This document shows positions 21,204 to 30,571 of a DNA stretch of 64,000 bases, piece after piece. Within the stretch, counting starts at the first letter, position 1. Each line of letters begins with the position of its first letter. Source of the stretch: Gammaproteobacteria bacterium (GTDB lineage: Bacteria; Pseudomonadota; Gammaproteobacteria; JAABTG01); assembly GCA_034522055.1 (NCBI GenBank), contig JAXHLS010000002.1:2871549-2935548 (forward strand), read 5' to 3'. The notes below the pieces were generated by a model, which made no database searches, was not told the DNA's origin, and saw nothing but the letters and a program-made list of their open reading frames with translations. A program made the position numbers and the translations under genes.

Positions 21204-21473
21204 GGCCGTAGTTTCTTTTTAAAAGAAAAGAGCTTAACCGCGAAAGACGCGAAATAACGCGAAAGAAACAAGCAATTTTGGCTCGTGAGTAGAATCCGTG
21301 GGTGTAGAAGAGGAGAATTTCCTCTCGCCAAGAACGCCAAGAACGCCAAGGAACCTGTTTGATTGTCGGGATAAATCCCGACCTACATTCGTGCCGCTGG
21401 AACGGGCGCTGGGGGATATTTGTAGGTCGGGCTGTAGGTCGGGCTTCAGCCCGACAGCCCGCTGCGCATTCCC
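21204..21473. repeat. cluster of unrelated small repeats (R1 half, R3, REP-like stem-loops)
   Basis: From left to right: half an R1 element (21212-21262), one R3 copy (21288-21332, AGAATCCGTGG ... TTTCCTCTCG), and stem-loops of the type GTCGGGATAAATCCCGACC (21378-21396) and GTAGGTCGGGCTTCAGCCCG (about 21434-21455). The same stem-loop family recurs near 27131 and 41430-41670, and R3 recurs at 25671 and 41370. No gene is visible here. The cluster abuts the left end of the duplicated segment. Confidence 0.75.
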
Positions 21474-21545
21474 GTGCGTTTCGATGGGGCGGTGCTCGAG
21501 CGGCTTGGAGCGACGCTGTCCTCCTATCTCGGCCACCTCATTCTG
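21474..21545 (+). pseudogene. reverse transcriptase 3' fragment (copy 1)
   Basis: Read in frame from 21474 this gives VRFDGAVLERLGATLSSYLG, followed by HL. This resembles the end of a bacterial reverse transcriptase (the L-R-A-T-x-x-S-Y-L-G-H-F type segment). The same segment ends the longer RT remnant at 27511-27798. Only about 24 codons remain because the REP-like repeats directly precede it. Confidence 0.5.
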
Positions 21546-21987
21546 GGTTTGCCCCCGGCGCGCGGCCGCGTTGCACGGGCAGGTCGAGGCGGCGCCAGGT
21601 GCGCATGTCGCCCTCCAGCTGGGTGAGGTTGGTGAAGCCGAGGTCCCTCAGGGTGGCGCGGGCGGCGCGGGAGCGGCTGCCGGTCTCGCAATAGAGGACG
21701 ATGGGGCGCCCGGGATCCGCCAGGGTCTCGGACAGCTGCCCGATGCGGCGCCCTTCCACCAGCCGCGCTCCGGGGATGTGGCCGGCCAGGTATTCCTGCG
21801 GTGTGCGGATGTCGAGCAGCAAGGGTGGGTCATGGCCGGCCATGGTTTCCATCAGCTCCTCCGGCGCGATGCGCGGGTCCTGGTCCGTCACCACGTGGCG
21901 GTTGGCGAAGGCGGCCAGCAGCAGCACCAGGGCCACCAGCATCCAGGGCATCATGGACTTCGAAGGGGTCGTGGTCTGCTCGCTCAT
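21538..21987 (-). CDS. membrane-anchored rhodanese-domain protein (copy 1)
   Basis: The 149-residue product has one N-terminal transmembrane helix (MMPWMLVALVLLLAAFANRH, about residues 11-30) and a rhodanese fold. The active-site cysteine is in IVLYCETGSRSRAA, so it could bind a persulfide or transfer sulfur, with the domain probably outside the inner membrane. ATG 21987 is preferred to an upstream in-frame start at 22029. It follows a 27-codon gene in a copper-ATPase context. A near-identical second copy lies at 27799-28248; differences include Met/Val, Ala/Val, His/Asp and Leu/Val replacements, all compatible with function. Confidence 0.85.
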   Translation of the reverse strand: MSEQTTTPSKSMMPWMLVALVLLLAAFANRHVVTDQDPRIAPEELMETMAGHDPPLLLDIRTPQEYLAGHIPGARLVEGRRIGQLSETLADPGRPIVLYCETGSRSRAARATLRDLGFTNLTQLEGDMRTWRRLDLPVQRGRAPGANPE

Positions 21988-22001
21988 GGTCGACCGGGGC
22001 T

Positions 22002-22085
22002 TCAGCCCTTGGGGCTCAGCCAGAACCACCAGACGATGAGATACATGAGTCCCACGCCCACGAGATTGACGAGGAAGTCCGTCAT
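22002..22085 (-). CDS. 27-residue single-span membrane protein (copy 1)
   Basis: A 28-codon frame starts [20 protein letters not shown] and ends FWLSPKG. It is almost wholly hydrophobic with a tryptophan-rich end, as expected for a small membrane peptide. Its ATG overlaps the stop of the copper ATPase fragment by four bases (ATGA) and it ends 14 bases before the rhodanese start codon. The second copy at 28263-28346 keeps the frame with four conservative replacements (D3E, V6I, V9A, V18A). Conservation of frame and coupling argue that it is translated. I do not recognise the family; a role with CopA or the rhodanese is inference. Confidence 0.65.
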   Translation of the reverse strand: MTDFLVNLVGVGLMYLIVWWFWLSPKG

Positions 22086-22816
22086 CGCAGGGTCTCCGTC
22101 TTGAATCGAAGCAGGCGGCTGGCGTTGCTGACCACGGTGACCGACGAGGCGGCCATGGCCGCCCCCGCCACCATGGGGTTGAGCAGCAGCCCGAAGGCGG
22201 GGAACAGCAGCCCCGCCGCCACCGGGATGCTCACGGTGTTGTAGGCGAAGGCTCCAAACAGGTTCTGGCGGATGTTGCGTACCGTGGCCCGGGACACCTC
22301 CACGGTGTCCGCCACCGCCATCAGGGAGCCGCCCATGAGGGCCACGTCGGCGCTCTCCACCGCCACGTCGGTGCCGGTGCCGATGGCCATGCCCACGTCC
22401 GCCAGGGCCAGGGCCGGGGCGTCGTTGATGCCGTCACCCACCATGCCCACCTTCTGGCCCCGGGCCTGGAGTTCGCGGATGAGTTCGGTCTTGTCGGCAG
22501 GCAGCAGCCCGGCGTGGACCTCTTCGATGCCGAGTTCGGCGGCGATGGCCTCGGCCGTGCCTCGGGCATCACCGGTGGCCATGATGACATGGAGCCCGGC
22601 GGCCTTGAGGCGTGCCACCGCCGCCGCCGCGTCGGCCTTGGGGGGGTCGGATACCGCCACCGCGCCCACCAGCCGGCCCTTCCTGGCGACATAGACGATG
22701 CTGGCGCCCACGAGGGCGGTGGTGTTCACCCCCTTCGTGGCTATGCCTTGCTCCTCCATGAGTCGCTGGCTGCCGGCGAGGACATCGTCGCCGTCGACCT
22801 GCCCCCGCACGCCGCG
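22082..22816 (-). pseudogene. copA: copper-transporting P-type ATPase, 3' fragment
   Basis: This encodes the last roughly 240 residues of CopA: part of the nucleotide-binding domain, the hinge [19 protein letters not shown], and the two final membrane helices. It is identical in protein sequence to the end of the complete gene at 28343-30571. The metal-binding domains, CPC motif and DKTGT phosphorylation site are missing. Upstream of 22816 the frame runs into unrelated sequence, so a functional pump cannot be made. It remains in frame with the downstream small gene and might act only as a leader. Confidence 0.88.
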
Positions 22817-23273: not shown

Positions 23274-23344
23274 TTTTGTTCTGCCGAACCGGCTGTTCAC
23301 CGCTGGAGTCACGTGGAGCCACGTTGAAAAGGAGAAATCAGCTC

Positions 23345-24709
23345 ATGCATTGCCTTATTAGAACGATCACTTCCAGTCTGGCGCTCGCGCTTCTGCTCTC
23401 GGGCGGCGCGCATGCCATTATTCTGACAAACGGCACCGCTGATGGGGCCGTCGAGATCGACACGGATACATACGGGTCGTTTCGTTCAGCGTTGTTCAAT
23501 CCGGTCGGCGGAATCGAACGGGCTGATACTACATTTGACAGCTTCGTCTACGTTCCTGACTTCGGCGGCGGACGGGCTCGCACCTCGGACGTGGCCACAC
23601 GCAGCGCGACCATCGTCTCGGCATCGGACACGGAGCTGGTCACGAACTTCGGCTGGAATGCCCTCAACATCACGCTGACCCAGTCCCTGCAGGACTCGTT
23701 CGATGGCCCGGAGCGGGTGGGGACGGTGCTACGCCAGGAGTTCAGGATCCAGAACACGGGGGTCACGACCTCCTTCGACGTGGTGCGCTACCTGGACGGG
23801 GACCTCTTGTTCGACGGTTCGATTTCTGATGCCGGCGGTCGCATCCAGGTAGGAGGCTCGGAGATTCTGTTTGAGACCGACTCCACCAGCGACGGCAGCA
23901 CCGCGACCACCTTTCTCGGCATCAGCCGAACCGTGACGGGCATGACGGAGCCCGTCGATGCGCCCCGCTACGAGATCAACCAGTTCTCCGGCCTTCGCTC
24001 GAAGATTCAGTCCGGCCTGGATCTCGACAACACGATCTTCGACGACGGCGACGGCGACGGATTCACGGACGGCACCTATGACGTCACGATGGCCCAGCAG
24101 AACGATCTGCGGATCCTCGAGGGCCAGACGGTCGTCTACACCACGAACACCCTGTTCGGGAACGCGGTGCCGCCGCCGCCCGGCTCCATCGCATCTCTGC
24201 CCCTGCTTCCCGACGAGATCGGGCCCGACGGTGGCTTCAACTTTAATGTCTCGACGGACGATGTTGATCCGTTCGAGACCTTCTTCATCGATCCCGAGAT
24301 TGCAACCGGCTACACCTATACGATTACCGGAGCCGAGTTCGGGAGCGTCACTGCCCCAACCTTGGCTGCAGTCAACGACCCTGATGGATACCTCCTCGAG
24401 TTCGGCGCGACGGAGATCGCCCTGGCTCCCGGTGACTTCTACGCGTTTGCTCCCGGAATCACCGAATTCCGGATCACCGGCATCGATCCGCTCCTCGAAC
24501 TCGACCCGACGGATCCGCTTGCTTTCGTTACGGGCGTCTCCTACCAGAACGCCGACCCCACTGTCGGCACTCTGACCATCACCCAGACGCCCATCGTGAC
24601 CGACACCGATTCGAATGCCGTGCCGGCGCCTGGGTCGCTGTGGCTGATCGGGCTGGGGCTGGCTGTGTGGCGCACCCTGGGACGCAGACCGGTGACTTCC
24701 CTTGCCTGA
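23345..24709 (+). CDS. secreted PEP-CTERM-type surface protein
   Basis: The 454-residue product has a signal peptide (hydrophobic core SSLALALLLSGGAHA, about residues 10-24) and a long extracellular beta-rich region without a recognised enzymatic domain. A calcium-loop-like D-D-G-D-G-D-G-F-T-D-G segment lies near residue 232. The C-terminal tripartite sorting signal is VPAPGSLWLIGLGLAVW followed by basic residues. This resembles PEP-CTERM/exosortase signals with PAP in place of PEP. AAGGAG precedes ATG 23345 at good distance. A sigma-54-type promoter lies upstream and a hairpin terminator just after the gene. It is probably an exopolysaccharide-associated surface protein; the specific role is unknown. 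Confidence 0.82.
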   Translation: MHCLIRTITSSLALALLLSGGAHAIILTNGTADGAVEIDTDTYGSFRSALFNPVGGIERADTTFDSFVYVPDFGGGRARTSDVATRSATIVSASDTELVTNFGWNALNITLTQSLQDSFDGPERVGTVLRQEFRIQNTGVTTSFDVVRYLDGDLLFDGSISDAGGRIQVGGSEILFETDSTSDGSTATTFLGISRTVTGMTEPVDAPRYEINQFSGLRSKIQSGLDLDNTIFDDGDGDGFTDGTYDVTMAQQNDLRILEGQTVVYTTNTLFGNAVPPPPGSIASLPLLPDEIGPDGGFNFNVSTDDVDPFETFFIDPEIATGYTYTITGAEFGSVTAPTLAAVNDPDGYLLEFGATEIALAPGDFYAFAPGITEFRITGIDPLLELDPTDPLAFVTGVSYQNADPTVGTLTITQTPIVTDTDSNAVPAPGSLWLIGLGLAVWRTLGRRPVTSLA

Positions 24710-25492: not shown

Positions 25493-25640
25493 ATGTCTCC
25501 CACCGCCGCGGCATGCAAGGCCGAGAGGGACCGGTCGGCTGGTCGTTACCAGCGCCATCGTCCCGAGCAGGCCCTTCTCTACCAGCTCGTCGAGCAACAT
25601 TACCCCGTGTTCGCTGCCCATCTGGCGGCGCAGGGCAGGA
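25493..25640 (+). pseudogene. IS91-family transposase, N-terminal fragment
   Basis: The frame reads MSPTAAACKAERDRSAGRYQ, followed by RHRPEQALLYQLVEQHYPVF and AAHLAAQGR. This matches the N-terminus of IS91-type transposases just before their zinc-binding domain (the Y-x-x-R-x-P-E-x-x-L-Y-Q-L-V segment). After about 50 codons it runs into a purine-rich stretch and an R3 repeat, so the rest is lost. No zinc-binding cysteines or catalytic tyrosines follow. It is a decayed element. Confidence 0.65.
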
Positions 25641-25670
25641 GGAAGAAAAGGAAAAAAAGAAAAGCCTCGT

Positions 25671-25716
25671 CAGCAGAATTCGTGGGCGTTGCGAAAATAA
25701 TTTCCTCTCGCCAAAG
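25671..25716. repeat. R3 short dispersed repeat
   Basis: CAGCAGAATTCGTGGGCGTT is followed by AAAATAATTTCCTCTCGCCA. Related copies occur at 21288-21332 and 41370-41417. In each case it sits at the edge of a broken gene or another repeat, which suggests a small mobile or recombinogenic sequence. Confidence 0.7.
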
Positions 25717-25810
25717 GAGCAGCAATTCTTTTCCAGCCGATTGACGATGGGGGCCACTTTGATGCGAATGAAGTCTGTGGCCAGCCTGTCGAAAAATTTT
25801 ACACTTTGCT

Positions 25811-25850
25811 TTGCCTTGCCTTGCCTTGCCTTGCCTTGCCTTGCCTTGCA
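25811..25850. repeat. pentanucleotide tandem repeat (TTGCC)n
   Basis: Seven perfect TTGCC units and a partial eighth run from 25811 to 25850. The tract lies in non-coding sequence between the IS91 fragment and the sigma-54 promoter of the DUF1566 pseudogene. Such tracts change length by slippage, but no gene reads through this one. Confidence 0.9.
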
Positions 25851-26041: not shown

Positions 26042-26797
26042 ATGGTTATTGAGCGGATAGTAAAGGGATGGGGTATGGCGGCAATGCTGATGCTGTCGGG
26101 GGCGGCAAGTGCGACGCTGTTTGACCGGGGTCGCGGTCTCATCTACGACGACGTGCTCGACATCACCTGGCTGCAGGATGCGAACTACGCGTAGACTTCC
26201 GGGTTTGATGCCGATGGCCTCATGATCTGGGCGAACGCGGTGGTTTGGGCGGACAATCTGGTTTTCGGCGGCTTCGACGACTGGCGGCTGCCCACCCTTG
26301 GTCCCATCGCCCCCCCCAACTTCAGCACGAGCCTCAGCAACAACGCCACCACGGACTGGGGCTGGGCGAAGACCACTACCGACGGCACGGACGGTGGCTG
26401 GCGCGACGGGGCCGGCAACCCGGTCTCGGAGATGGGGCACATGTTCTATGTGAACCTGGGGAACCTGGGGTTGTGTACCCCGAACGACGCTGACCCGGGT
26501 TCATGCATCACACAAACCGGCTCGGGCCTCGCCGACACCGGCCTGTTCGACAATCTTCAGTCCGGCGTCTACTGGTCCAGGTTGGAGCGTATCTCGAGCG
26601 CGTGGATCTTCAGCTTCGACAACGGAGGCCAGGGCACTAGCACTAAGATCAACGAGCGGTTCGCGTGGGCTGTTCGCTCCGGCGATGTCGCCGCGCAGGT
26701 CGTGCCGGTGCCGGCTGCGGCGTGGTTGCTGTGCTCGGGCGTGATGGTGCTGCTGGGGCTGGGCCGGCGGGCGCGGCGGCATTCGGCGCTTCGGTGA
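26042..26797 (+). pseudogene. DUF1566 (Lcl-like) protein with CTERM anchor, interrupted by a stop codon
   Basis: From ATG 26042 (preceded by GGAGGGGGAG) the frame gives a signal peptide (residues about 1-24). It then has LIYDDVLDITWLQDANYA, an in-frame TAG at 26192-26194, and continues in the same frame with DADGLMIWANAVVWADNL, FGGFDDWRLPTL, GVYWSRLERISSAW and ERFAWAVRSGD. These are the landmarks of the DUF1566/Lcl C-type-lectin-like fold. It ends VPVPAAAWLLCSGVMVLLGL plus arginines, a VPxxA-type CTERM sorting signal. Relatives have a glutamine or lysine codon where the TAG stands, so a single C-to-T change from CAG would explain it. Readthrough cannot be excluded. Confidence 0.8.
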
Positions 26798-26879
26798 TTC
26801 GGTGATTCGGGCCCTTTGGCCCTTTGGCCCTTTGGCCCTTTTCCCCTCCCCCGCCTGCGGGGAAGGCGTGAGGGGGGCA

Positions 26880-26934
26880 GGGGGAGGCCTCCCCCTGCAT
26901 CGCCCGCAGGGCGATTTGTCGGAAAATTTGACAG
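26880..26934. repeat. 55-bp direct repeat R6, copy 1
   Basis: GGGGGAGGCCTCCCCCTGCA is followed by a CGCCCGCAGGGCG hairpin and TGTCGGAAAATTTGACA. The last part is an inverted repeat TGTC-N9-GACA. The same 55 bases recur at 27365-27419 with one change. The 26798-27364 interval contains these repeats, (CCCTTTGG)-type repeats at 26811-26841, and a stem-loop GTCGGCTGC/GCAGCCGAC at 27088-27110, but no gene. Confidence 0.8.
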
Positions 26935-27364
26935 TGGCCCGCTACCGGGAGGCAGGGTCAGGTCTTCCTTTTTGCTTTTTTCAGCCAGACGGTCTCTTAT
27001 CGAAATAGGGTAGGGCAAAAGGCAAGACGTGATCCCGTGGATTACTCTCGGCAACCGACATCCGCGCCCGCAAACTGCCGAATTTCGTCGGCTGCCAAGA
27101 GCAGCCGACCTACGCCTCTCTCTGGCGCCAGGGGTCAGCCTGTAGGTCGGGATTTATCCCGACATCCAAGCCCGCCGCGCACACCCCGGGCCGGGCTGGT
27201 ATTACCCGCGGGCTCCAAGTCCTGCCGGGCTTAACCCGGCATCCAGGGCGGTGGGCGCTACGGCCAGGGGTGGTGCCTCTGGCTTGCGCGGGTGCGGCGG
27301 TCCTGGATTACTCGCTGCGCTCGCTTGCGGAGGAGGGTCGGGGAGGGGGCGCGAGGGGGTGCCA

Positions 27365-27419
27365 GGGGGAGACCTCCCCCTGCATCGCCCGCAGGGCGAT
27401 TTGTCGGAAAATTTGACAG
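27365..27419. repeat. 55-bp direct repeat R6, copy 2
   Basis: This is a near-identical second copy of 26880-26934, 485 bp downstream in the same orientation, including the GCCCGCAGGGC hairpin and TGTCGGAAAATTTGACA. It abuts the palindromic repeat at 27419-27510. Confidence 0.8.
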
Positions 27420-27510
27420 ATCGTAGGTTGGGATGAGGAACGAACCCCAACATGACCATGAAGATGGCGAATACCCGTTGGGGTTCGCAAGCTCACCCCA
27501 ACCTACGATC
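27419..27510. repeat. 92-bp imperfect palindrome
   Basis: The left end GATCGTAGGTTGGGATGAGG pairs with the right end GCTCACCCCAACCTACGATC, and AACGAACCCCAAC pairs with GTTGGGGTTCG. The spacer contains CATGACCATGAAGATGGCG. This is a REP/MITE-like element. It directly cuts into the reverse transcriptase remnant that follows. Confidence 0.82.
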
Positions 27511-27798
27511 TGGCGCGAGCGCATCGCCGCATATCTCAAAGTGAATTGGGTCCGGCGCTCGATCCCCGCGAGCGCCTGGCGCCGGTGGGCAATGGCATCG
27601 ACTTCCTCGACTTCCTCGGCTACATCGTGCGCCGCGAGCACCGGCTGGTGCGCCGGCGTGTGGTCCAGCGCCTGAAGGACAACTTGGAGGGTTTCGAGGC
27701 CGAACTGGTCTCCGAGCGGGACGGCGTGCGGTGCGTGCGTTTCGATGGGGCGGTGCCGGAGCGGTTGGCCGCGACGCTGTCCTCCTATCCCGGGCACT
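27511..27798 (+). pseudogene. reverse transcriptase 3' remnant (copy 2)
   Basis: One frame begins WRERIAAYL. After a frameshift near 27545 the next reads LGPALDPRERLAPVGNGIDF, then LDFLGYIVRREHRLVRRRVV. It ends ERLAATLSSYPGHF. This matches the C-terminal part of bacterial reverse transcriptases (the G-I-D-F-L-G-Y-I-V-R motif) related to those of diversity-generating retroelements and group II-like RTs. A nine-base tandem duplication (GACTTCCTC twice) inserts three residues into the motif. The catalytic YADD region is absent. It is truncated on the left by the palindrome at 27419-27510. Confidence 0.62.
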
Positions 27799-28248
27799 TC
27801 ATCCCGGGTTCGCCCCCGGCGCGCGGCCGCGTTGCACGGGCAGGTCGAGGCGGCGCCAGGTGCGCATGTCGCCCTCCAGCTGGGTGAGGTTGGTGAAGCC
27901 GAGGTCCCGCAGGGTGGCGCGGGCGGCGCGGGAGCGGCTGCCGGTCTCGCAATAGAGGACGATGGGGCGCCCGGGATCCGCCAGGGTCTCGGACAGCTGC
28001 CCGATGCGGCGCCCTTCCACCAGCCGCGCTCCGGGGATGTGGCCGGCCACGTATTCCTGCGGTGTGCGGATGTCGAGCAGCAAGGGCGGGTCATCGCCGA
28101 CCATGGTTTCCATCAGCTCCTCCGGCGCGATGCGCGGGTCCTGGTCCGTTACCACGTGGCGGTTGGCGAAGGCGGCCAGCAGCAGCACCAGGGCCACCAG
28201 CACCCAGGGCATCATGGATTTCGAAGGGGTCGTGGTCTGCTCGCTCAT
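27799..28248 (-). CDS. membrane-anchored rhodanese-domain protein (copy 2)
   Basis: The 149-residue protein has the same layout as the 21538-21987 copy: N-terminal membrane anchor (MMPWVLVALVLLLAAF) and a rhodanese domain with active-site cysteine in IVLYCETGSRSRAA. It is the last gene of an apparent operon copZ-copA-small membrane protein-rhodanese on the minus strand, starting 14 bases after the small gene. A sulfur-carrier or thiol-handling role in copper stress is plausible from position but unproven. Confidence 0.87.
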   Translation of the reverse strand: MSEQTTTPSKSMMPWVLVALVLLLAAFANRHVVTDQDPRIAPEELMETMVGDDPPLLLDIRTPQEYVAGHIPGARLVEGRRIGQLSETLADPGRPIVLYCETGSRSRAARATLRDLGFTNLTQLEGDMRTWRRLDLPVQRGRAPGANPG

Positions 28249-28262
28249 GGTCGACCGGGGCT

Positions 28263-28346
28263 TCAGCCCTTGGGGCTCAGCCAGAACCACCAGGCGATGA
28301 GATACATGAGGCCCACGCCGGCGAGGTTGATCAGGAACTCCGTCAT
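28263..28346 (-). CDS. 27-residue single-span membrane protein (copy 2)
   Basis: The frame encodes [20 protein letters not shown] followed by FWLSPKG. Its ATG overlaps the copA stop (ATGA), giving translational coupling to the pump. Compared with the 22002-22085 copy it has four conservative replacements and three silent changes but no frameshift. The peptide would be a single membrane helix with a Trp/Phe-rich end and a short SPKG tail. It is too short for normal gene callers. No known family is recognised. Confidence 0.68.
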
Positions 28347-30571
28347 CGCAGGGTCTCCGTCTTGAATCGAAGCAGGCGGCTGGCGTTGCTGACCACGGTG
28401 ACCGACGAGGCGGCCATGGCCGCCCCCGCCACCATGGGGTTGAGCAGCAGCCCGAAGGCGGGGAACAGCAGCCCCGCCGCCACCGGGATGCTCACGGTGT
28501 TGTAGGCGAAGGCTCCAAACAGGTTCTGGCGGATGTTGCGTACCGTGGCCCGGGACACCTCCACGGTGTCCGCCACCGCCATCAGGGAGCCGCCCATGAG
28601 GGCCACGTCGGCGCTCTCCACCGCCACGTCGGTGCCGGTGCCGATGGCCATGCCCACGTCCGCCAGGGCCAGGGCCGGGGCGTCGTTGATGCCGTCACCC
28701 ACCATGCCCACCTTCTGGCCCCGGGCCTGGAGTTCGCGGATGAGTTCGGTCTTGTCGGCAGGCAGCAGCCCGGCGTGGACCTCTTCGATGCCGAGTTCGG
28801 CGGCGATGGCCTCGGCCGTGCCTCGGGCATCACCGGTGGCCATGATGACATGGAGCCCGGCGGCCTTGAGGCGTGCCACCGCCGCCGCCGCGTCGGCCTT
28901 GGGGGGGTCGGATACCGCCACCGCGCCCACCAGCCGGCCCTTCCTGGCGACATAGACGATGCTGGCGCCCACGAGGGCGGTGGTGTTCACCCCCTTCGTG
29001 GCTATGCCTTGCTCCTCCATGAGCCGTTGACTGCCGGCGAGGACGTCGTCGCCGTCGACCCGCCCCCGCACGCCGCGCCCGGTGAGGGACTCGAAGTCCA
29101 CCACCACCGCCGGCTGGATGCCGCCCTCGGCGGCGGCCTTGACGATGGCGCTACCGAGGGGGTGCTCGGAGCCGATCTCGAGGCCGGCGGCCAGGGTCAT
29201 CACCTCTTCCTCGGCGTGTCTGCGGGCGGGGAGCACGGCGGTCACGGCGGGCCTGCCCTCGGTGACGGTGCCCGTCTTGTCCAGCACGATGGTGGTCAGT
29301 TCCCCCGCCGCCTGGAGGGCATCGCCGGTGCGGATGAGGATGCCGTGGGCGGCCGCCAGGCCGGTGCCGATCATCACCGAGATGGGGGTGGCCAGCCCCA
29401 GGGCGCATGGACAGGCGATCACGAGCACGGTCATGGCGGTGACCACCATGTAGCCGGTGACGGGCTCGGGCCCGAAGTTGAACCATATCAAGGCGGTGAA
29501 CACGGCGAACATGAGCACCGCCGGCACGAAGATGGCGGACACGCGGTCGGCCAGGCGGCCGATGGCGGGCTTGGCGGACTGGGCGCGGCGCACCTCGTTG
29601 ACGATCTGGGCCAGCACCATGTCGCGACCGATGCGGGTGGCCTTCATGAGGAAGCTGCCGCGGCCGTTCACCGTGCCCCCCACCACCTCGTCGCCGGGGC
29701 GGCGTCCCACGGGCATGGGCTCGCCGGTGAGCATGGACTCGTCCACGTCCGACTGGCCCTCCAGCAACTCGCCGTCCACCGGGATGCGCTCGCCGGGGCG
29801 GATGCGCAGGGTCTCGCCCAGGCCCACCTGCTCCACCGCTACGTCCAGTTCTCGGCCGTCGCGGATGACCCGCGCCTTCTTGGGCTGCAGGTCGAGGAGA
29901 CGGCGGATGGCCGAGGAGGTGCGCATGCGGCTGCGGGCGTCCATGGCGGTGCCGAAGTTGATGAAGGCGAGGATGAACACCGCCGCCTCGAAGTAGGCAT
30001 GGCGCGCCAGGGAAGGGACGGTGTCGGGCCAGATGGCCACCAGCATGGAGTAGACCCAGGCGGTGCCGGTGCCCAGGGCGATGAGGGTGTCCATGTTGGC
30101 GTTGTGATGGCGGAAGGCCTTCCACGCACCAATATAGTAGTGGCGTCCGCCGTAATACATGGCGGCGGCGGTGATCAGGCCCACCAGGACCCAGAAGGCG
30201 CGATTGCCGGGGTCGCCCGTGACGGCGGGCAGCAGCCCCGCCATGCCGGAGATCATGAGTTGGGCGCCCCAGGCGCCGGCCACCGCGGCCTGGATGAGCA
30301 GGGTCTCCTGATGGGCCTTCTCCCGGCGCTCCTTCTCCAGGTCGTCCTCGATGCTCACCATCTCCGCGGCGTCGTAGCCGGCATCCTTGACGGCCTTCAC
30401 CAGGGCCAGGGGCTCCACGTCCCCCTCCACCCGGGCGGTGTGTTCGGCGAAGTTGACGGTGGCGCTGCGCACGCCGTCGACGCCAGCCAGGGCCTGTTCT
30501 ACGGCGCCCACGCAGCCCGCGCAGGCCATGCCGGAGATGGACAGGTTGTATTCGCCGGGGGTATCCGTCAT
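28343..30571 (-). CDS. copA: copper(I)-translocating P-type ATPase CopA
   Basis: CopA exports Cu(I) from the cytoplasm using ATP. The 742-residue protein has one N-terminal heavy-metal-associated domain (GMACAGC near residue 14) and the P1B-1 helix arrangement. It contains the metal-path motif [10 protein letters not shown], the phosphorylation site [11 protein letters not shown], the ATP-binding SEHPLG and the hinge [16 protein letters not shown]. Its ATG overlaps the end of the copper-chaperone gene by four bases and its stop overlaps the following small gene. Cytoplasmic copper detoxification or cuproprotein supply is expected. The 3' third exists a second time at 22082-22816. Confidence 0.95.

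Follow-up and report, generated by a model that had tools for sequence, protein, structure and literature searches.

Diversity-generating retroelements (DGRs) are bacterial systems that randomly rewrite one stretch of a surface protein. Among the Pfam domains found in DGR targets, DUF1566, which has the CLec fold, is the most frequent (PMC6642488). The variable repeats (VRs) of DGRs are near-universally C-terminal, a placement that has been explained by intergenic cis-acting elements (Roux et al. 2021; PMC8144416). The other described proteins that bear on the present locus are the exosortase substrates with PEP-CTERM, VPLPA-CTERM or IPTL-CTERM tails. No paper treating DGRs jointly with PEP-CTERM proteins or exosortases was found in the literature searched, which took in few subscription papers and preprints, and the CTERM-tagged DGR arrangement described below may be new to the literature.

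The locus lies at positions 26042-27800 of the window, by which we mean the whole 64,000-nucleotide stretch of gammaproteobacterial DNA that was analysed, and is almost certainly a decayed, dead DGR. Its intact relatives share with the BPP-1 type of DGR an avd gene of the bAvd family, A-to-N changes from the template repeat (TR) to the VR, a DGR-type reverse transcriptase (RT) and a C-type-lectin-like DUF1566 target; the window differs from that type in that the RT, avd and the TR are lost or truncated. The relatives are also like the exosortase substrates in the tail and in the presence of a host exosortase, and differ from them in that the substrate includes a hypermutation target. The relic as such is ordinary; less ordinary is the clade to which it points.

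Intact relatives with CTERM-tagged targets

The intact relatives are arranged in the order target, avd (bAvd, PF22296), TR and RT, and their targets, as in the window, are DUF1566 (Lcl_C) proteins with a PEP-CTERM-type sorting signal. The DGR of a gammaproteobacterial MAG (G079; WFXF01000090.1) has its genes in the same order as the window, a target of like architecture and an RT of the same clade and, unlike the window, is intact: its 495-aa RT lies directly downstream of the bAvd gene and the DUF1566-PEP-CTERM target, and its TR immediately precedes the RT start. Between this TR and its VR, 20 adenines and a single further position are changed. In eleven more loci of the clade a TR/VR pair shows 9-21 changes, all of them at adenines, and block-shuffled loci yielded no such pairs. 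The G079 RT additionally carries a C-terminal MutS_I domain, which is lost from the window remnant. This mismatch-binding domain is seen at the C-terminus of 19 of the 22 DGR RTs tested in a wider group (L043 7009-8496 and relatives).

The preliminary description had read the locus as an inactivated DGR, and the relatives bear this out, in that DUF1566-CTERM genes adjoin RTs at 13 loci. A detectable TR/VR pair accompanies the CTERM tail in 12 of these (L054-L061, L063, L065, L066 and L070), and no pair was detected in the remaining one (L074). In L055 a frameshift precedes the tail of the target, and the target of L056 also ends in a CTERM tail. The tails match TIGR02595, TIGR03370 or TIGR04174, several of them above the cut-off, and a strong exosortase is encoded by 8 of the 9 tested host genomes with a CTERM target; for sister DGRs that lack the tag, the figure is 2 of 10 hosts. 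Wherever it could be measured, 86-144 nt of coding sequence with the CTERM signal separates the VR from the stop codon in this clade, in contrast to the near-universally C-terminal VRs described for DGRs; the target stop of most sister DGRs lies 0-60 nt from the VR. Of the 10 relatives measured, 8 have a hairpin with a stem of 8-10 bp in the interval from the target stop to avd, 116-185 nt beyond the VR. We consider that the window relic probably, though by no means certainly, belongs to an undescribed DGR sub-class of the Gamma- and Betaproteobacteria, whose exosortase-substrate lectin-like target has an internal VR and a CTERM tail, mostly with a hairpin after the stop, 116-194 nt from the VR. 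The sorting tag of these targets presumably works, and retrohoming would proceed across the tail-coding stretch.

Anatomy of the window locus

The target pseudogene occupies 26042-26797 of the forward strand, from an ATG at 26042 to the end of its stop codon at 26797. Its N-terminus resembles a signal peptide and its second half matches Lcl_C/DUF1566 at 36.1 bits, above the Pfam cut-off; from this assignment we predict that the variable domain has a C-type lectin fold. The frame is interrupted once, by a TAG at 26192-26194, and is open in the rest of its length. The VR (26561-26684, forward strand), recognised by its codon-by-codon alignment with the TRs of the intact relatives, is closed by a conserved segment, TTCGCGTGGGCTGTTCGC, which is probably IMH-like. 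Downstream of it comes a CTERM exosortase-type tail (VPVPAAAWLLCSGVMVLLGLGRRARRH; 26703-26785, forward strand), which reads VPVPAAAWLL...GLGRRARR, has the CTERM form VPVPAAAWLLCSGVMVLLGLGRRARR and follows the layout of exosortase substrates, namely a C-terminal motif, a hydrophobic helix and a basic cluster. Its matches to the Pfam and NCBIfam models are weak (PEP-CTERM, Pfam, 10.6 bits; VPLPA-CTERM, 15.3 bits; both under the cut-off), whereas the same layout scores above the curated cut-off in most relatives and in an intact target paralogue on another contig of the genome (G000:C6:269260-270105; 72% protein identity to the window target; 29.4 bits against Pfam). The host genome codes for two strong exosortases (PF09721, E 3e-78 and 1e-74).

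The two target copies of the genome differ in CTERM type, with VPVPAAAW in the window and VPEPGTLV in the paralogue (L041:7261-8109), and have an identical 3' end, GLGRRARRHSALR. Upstream of the target, the window also contains another gene for a PEP-CTERM protein (23276-24709; Pfam 18.5 bits, just under the cut-off) and a short tandem run of the pentamer TTGCC (25815-25850). The stretch 25493-25741, which by eye resembles the start of an IS91-type transposase, has no Pfam match and was discarded as such.

Behind the target lies a target-to-avd junction (26865-26946, forward strand) with 94% identity over 81 bp to the junction of the paralogue (L041:8264-8344). A hairpin with a 10-bp stem at 26877-26898 is formed by the inverted repeat GCAGGGGGAG/CTCCCCCTGC and placed between the target stop and the avd start, 194 nt beyond the end of the VR. 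The earlier statement that no avd gene is seen has to be corrected, as its first four codons, GTG GCC CGC TAC, remain at 26934-26945 on the forward strand, the sequence diverging afterwards. So short a stub is recognisable because, at the second target, the same 81-bp junction opens into an avd stub 25 codons long, where the equivalent of the avd start continues as MARYEHLPIYKQALDVAVHFEPVLA, which is 88% identical to the G079 avd. The stub in the window is followed by about 400 bp with repeat-type sequence, by a partial second copy of the junction (27348-27419, forward strand; 72 bp that match 26865-26934 at 94% identity) and by a palindromic MITE/REP-like element at 27420-27510 with the terminal inverted repeats ATCGTAGGTTGGG and CCCAACCTACGATC. 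RT homology begins right behind this element, at the TGG of 27511.

The RT remnant (27511-27800, forward strand) is cut at both ends, with the 3' cut at about 27800, and comprises about 90 codons of the thumb region without the catalytic YxDD region. Its main block, 27558-27800, corresponds to residues 275-352 of the G079 RT. A further piece, WRERIAAYLK (27511-27540), is in another frame than the main block, which locates a frameshift to about 27541-27557, and a 9-bp tandem duplication, GACTTCCTC, is present at 27600-27617. The anatomy given in the preliminary description holds in all these respects: a DUF1566 target with an in-frame TAG is followed on the same strand by an RT remnant that has suffered a frameshift, a nine-base duplication and truncation, and the CTERM tail claimed for the target is there in form, if with weak scores. 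The claim that no TR lies between the two genes also stands. A scan permitting changes at template adenines only found no TR in the window, and none was found elsewhere in the genome; the locus is therefore a relic and not a functional DGR.

A segment of 1345 bp is duplicated in tandem (21473-22816 = 27734-29077, 97.6% identity), and its two copies flank the target and two other genes. The segment holds an RT tail, a gene for a rhodanese and a portion of a P-ATPase gene of the copper type. The final ~65 bases of the RT remnant fall inside it, and the duplication has left the final ~25 remnant codons once more at 21473-21548 on the forward strand; the upstream copy keeps SSYLGH, as in intact RTs, and the downstream copy has SSYPGH. 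On the simplest reading, the RT had already lost its 3' end when the duplication took place.

Affinity of the remnant and change in the variable repeat

The remnant has 54-63% identity to the RTs of intact DGRs from other proteobacteria, at E values of about 1e-20 or better, which are not those of chance matches. The G079 RT was matched at 55% identity (E 2e-23) among 369 genomes of the class, and the closest RTs, those of L074, L055 and L058, have 62-63% identity. A wider search yielded 80 RT loci; L011 and L013 were taken as chance matches, their ORF lists being without an RT. In trees of 42 RTs of the avd/TR-linked type and three group II outgroups, the remnant nests within the CTERM-target group (L054-L058 and L074) with a support of 0.946 in the full alignment and 0.975 with the thumb only. 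The full-length tree places it outside the group II intron RTs; when the thumb alone is used, the outgroup sequences do not themselves root cleanly. This position inside the avd-linked clade agrees with the DGR affinity proposed earlier from a motif of the fragment. A 63-aa piece of the RT had no match in the plasmid tblastn, phage tblastn or PDB searches. A search of genome contigs for close relatives with the raw fragment found nothing either; when the fragment is damaged, the reach of short exact peptide words is limited to close relatives.

The VR appears to retain a pattern of change that is enriched at the TR adenines of the relatives, with TR codons AAC or AAT mostly facing window codons altered at the first or second base. 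As the TR of the locus itself is lost, the adenine test relies on eight TRs, all from other species, over 80 aligned bases. Relative to the L058 TR, the window VR is changed at 14 of 28 A sites and 8 of 52 other sites (P=0.0013), and relative to that of L057 at 14 of 29 A sites and 7 of 51 others (P=0.001). The excess has a P below 0.05 with six of the eight TRs and is not significant with those of L055 and L063 (P 0.06 and 0.09), the eight tests not being independent, because they share one VR and the TRs are related. The VR of the C6 paralogue, compared with the L058 TR, is changed at 18 of 28 A sites and 10 of 52 others (P=8e-5). Between the two VRs of the genome, positions with A in every TR are only suggestively more variable (8 of 19, against 10 of 45 elsewhere; P=0.096). 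Codon differences between the window target and the paralogue are 23 nonsynonymous and 3 synonymous-only in the VR, as against 33 and 33 in the part of the target upstream of it (P=4.5e-4).

Alternative readings, proposed history and implications

A target gene of this kind is by itself not diagnostic of a DGR, as G019 has a stand-alone DUF1566-PEP-CTERM gene with no RT nearby. The host genome of the window likewise contains a third DUF1566 gene (C4:29083-29376) without DGR features, and an ordinary DUF1566-PEP-CTERM pseudogene could have come to lie beside an unrelated RT fragment. Such a coincidence is nonetheless very improbable in the face of the adenine bias and nonsynonymous excess of the VR, of an avd start in its expected place with the target and the RT on either side, and of the fact that the RTs nearest to the remnant lie directly downstream of homologous DUF1566-CTERM targets. 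We give hardly any credence to a derivation of the fragment from a group II intron or another class of RT, which would be the least probable of the readings weighed here. The genome does have about 40 RVT_1 matches on contigs C2, C3, C4 and C6, many of them near-identical and apparently, for the most part, group II intron proteins, and the remnant matches phrog_1423 (E 9e-5), a profile that matches the intron RTs of this genome too. However, blastp against 18 sampled intron-type loci of the same genome gave no group II match at E 1 or below, whereas identity to avd-linked DGR RTs is 50-63%, and the tree position points the same way. No curated NCBIfam family was matched by the remnant, and the sole retron comparison made, a PADLOC scan, returned RT_UG17 at the noise level of E 0.08.

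The C6 target has an open frame and a VR strongly unlike that of the window, as would be expected if it were still diversified in trans by machinery elsewhere. This we regard as very improbable too, slightly more so than the coincidence, since the genome, which is 98% complete, has no bAvd above the cut-off, no TR, and neither another RT of this DGR clade nor any intact DGR RT. A PF05635 match at C6:190013 was rejected as an avd candidate, being far below the bAvd cut-off and amid nuo-like genes. A 23S_rRNA_IVP four-helix-bundle gene is located there (L042 5978-6358; G000:C6:189977-190357), between nuoM-like and nuoN-like genes. With bAvd, the TR and a further clade RT all missing, both targets appear frozen, and the C6 target, being without an RT, should now be a fixed protein. 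Behind it come the shared junction and the avd stub, beyond which a serine-recombinase-like gene stands on the opposite strand. In the genus and family relatives tested (G001-G004), the target has no homologue with an E value of 1e-8 or less, and a convincing match to the RT is likewise absent.

Under the reading of a decayed DGR, a TR transcript from between avd and the RT gene would have been copied in the ancestor by an Avd-RT complex with errors at adenines, and the mutated cDNA would have replaced the VR of the DUF1566 target gene lying upstream. In this way, a C-type-lectin-like binding surface may have been randomised over about 15-20 codons. The target would have been exported and its CTERM tail handled by an exosortase, with many receptor variants possibly placed at the surface or released. 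During decay, avd, the TR and most of the RT would have been deleted or replaced by short repeats and the palindromic element; the window target would have acquired its stop codon, and the C6 copy would have stayed open in frame, with a frozen VR variant of its own. Observed directly are the remnants, the gene order and TR/VR pairs of the relatives, the adenine bias and the absence of a TR, avd and RT from this genome, whereas the activity of the ancestor, the sequence in which its parts decayed and the position of the target at the surface are inferred.

The locus confirms the loss of a DGR by decay inside a genome, with two frozen target copies remaining. The clade to which it points breaks the reported rule of the C-terminal VR and offers a natural test of the cis-element explanation. 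If our assignment is true, retrohoming must cope with coding sequence that separates the VR from any intergenic cis-acting element, and a diversified receptor would pass through the exosortase pathway. The loci of the clade further suggest that hypermutated recognition proteins can occur among the exosortase-sorted proteins, a class whose roles are poorly understood.
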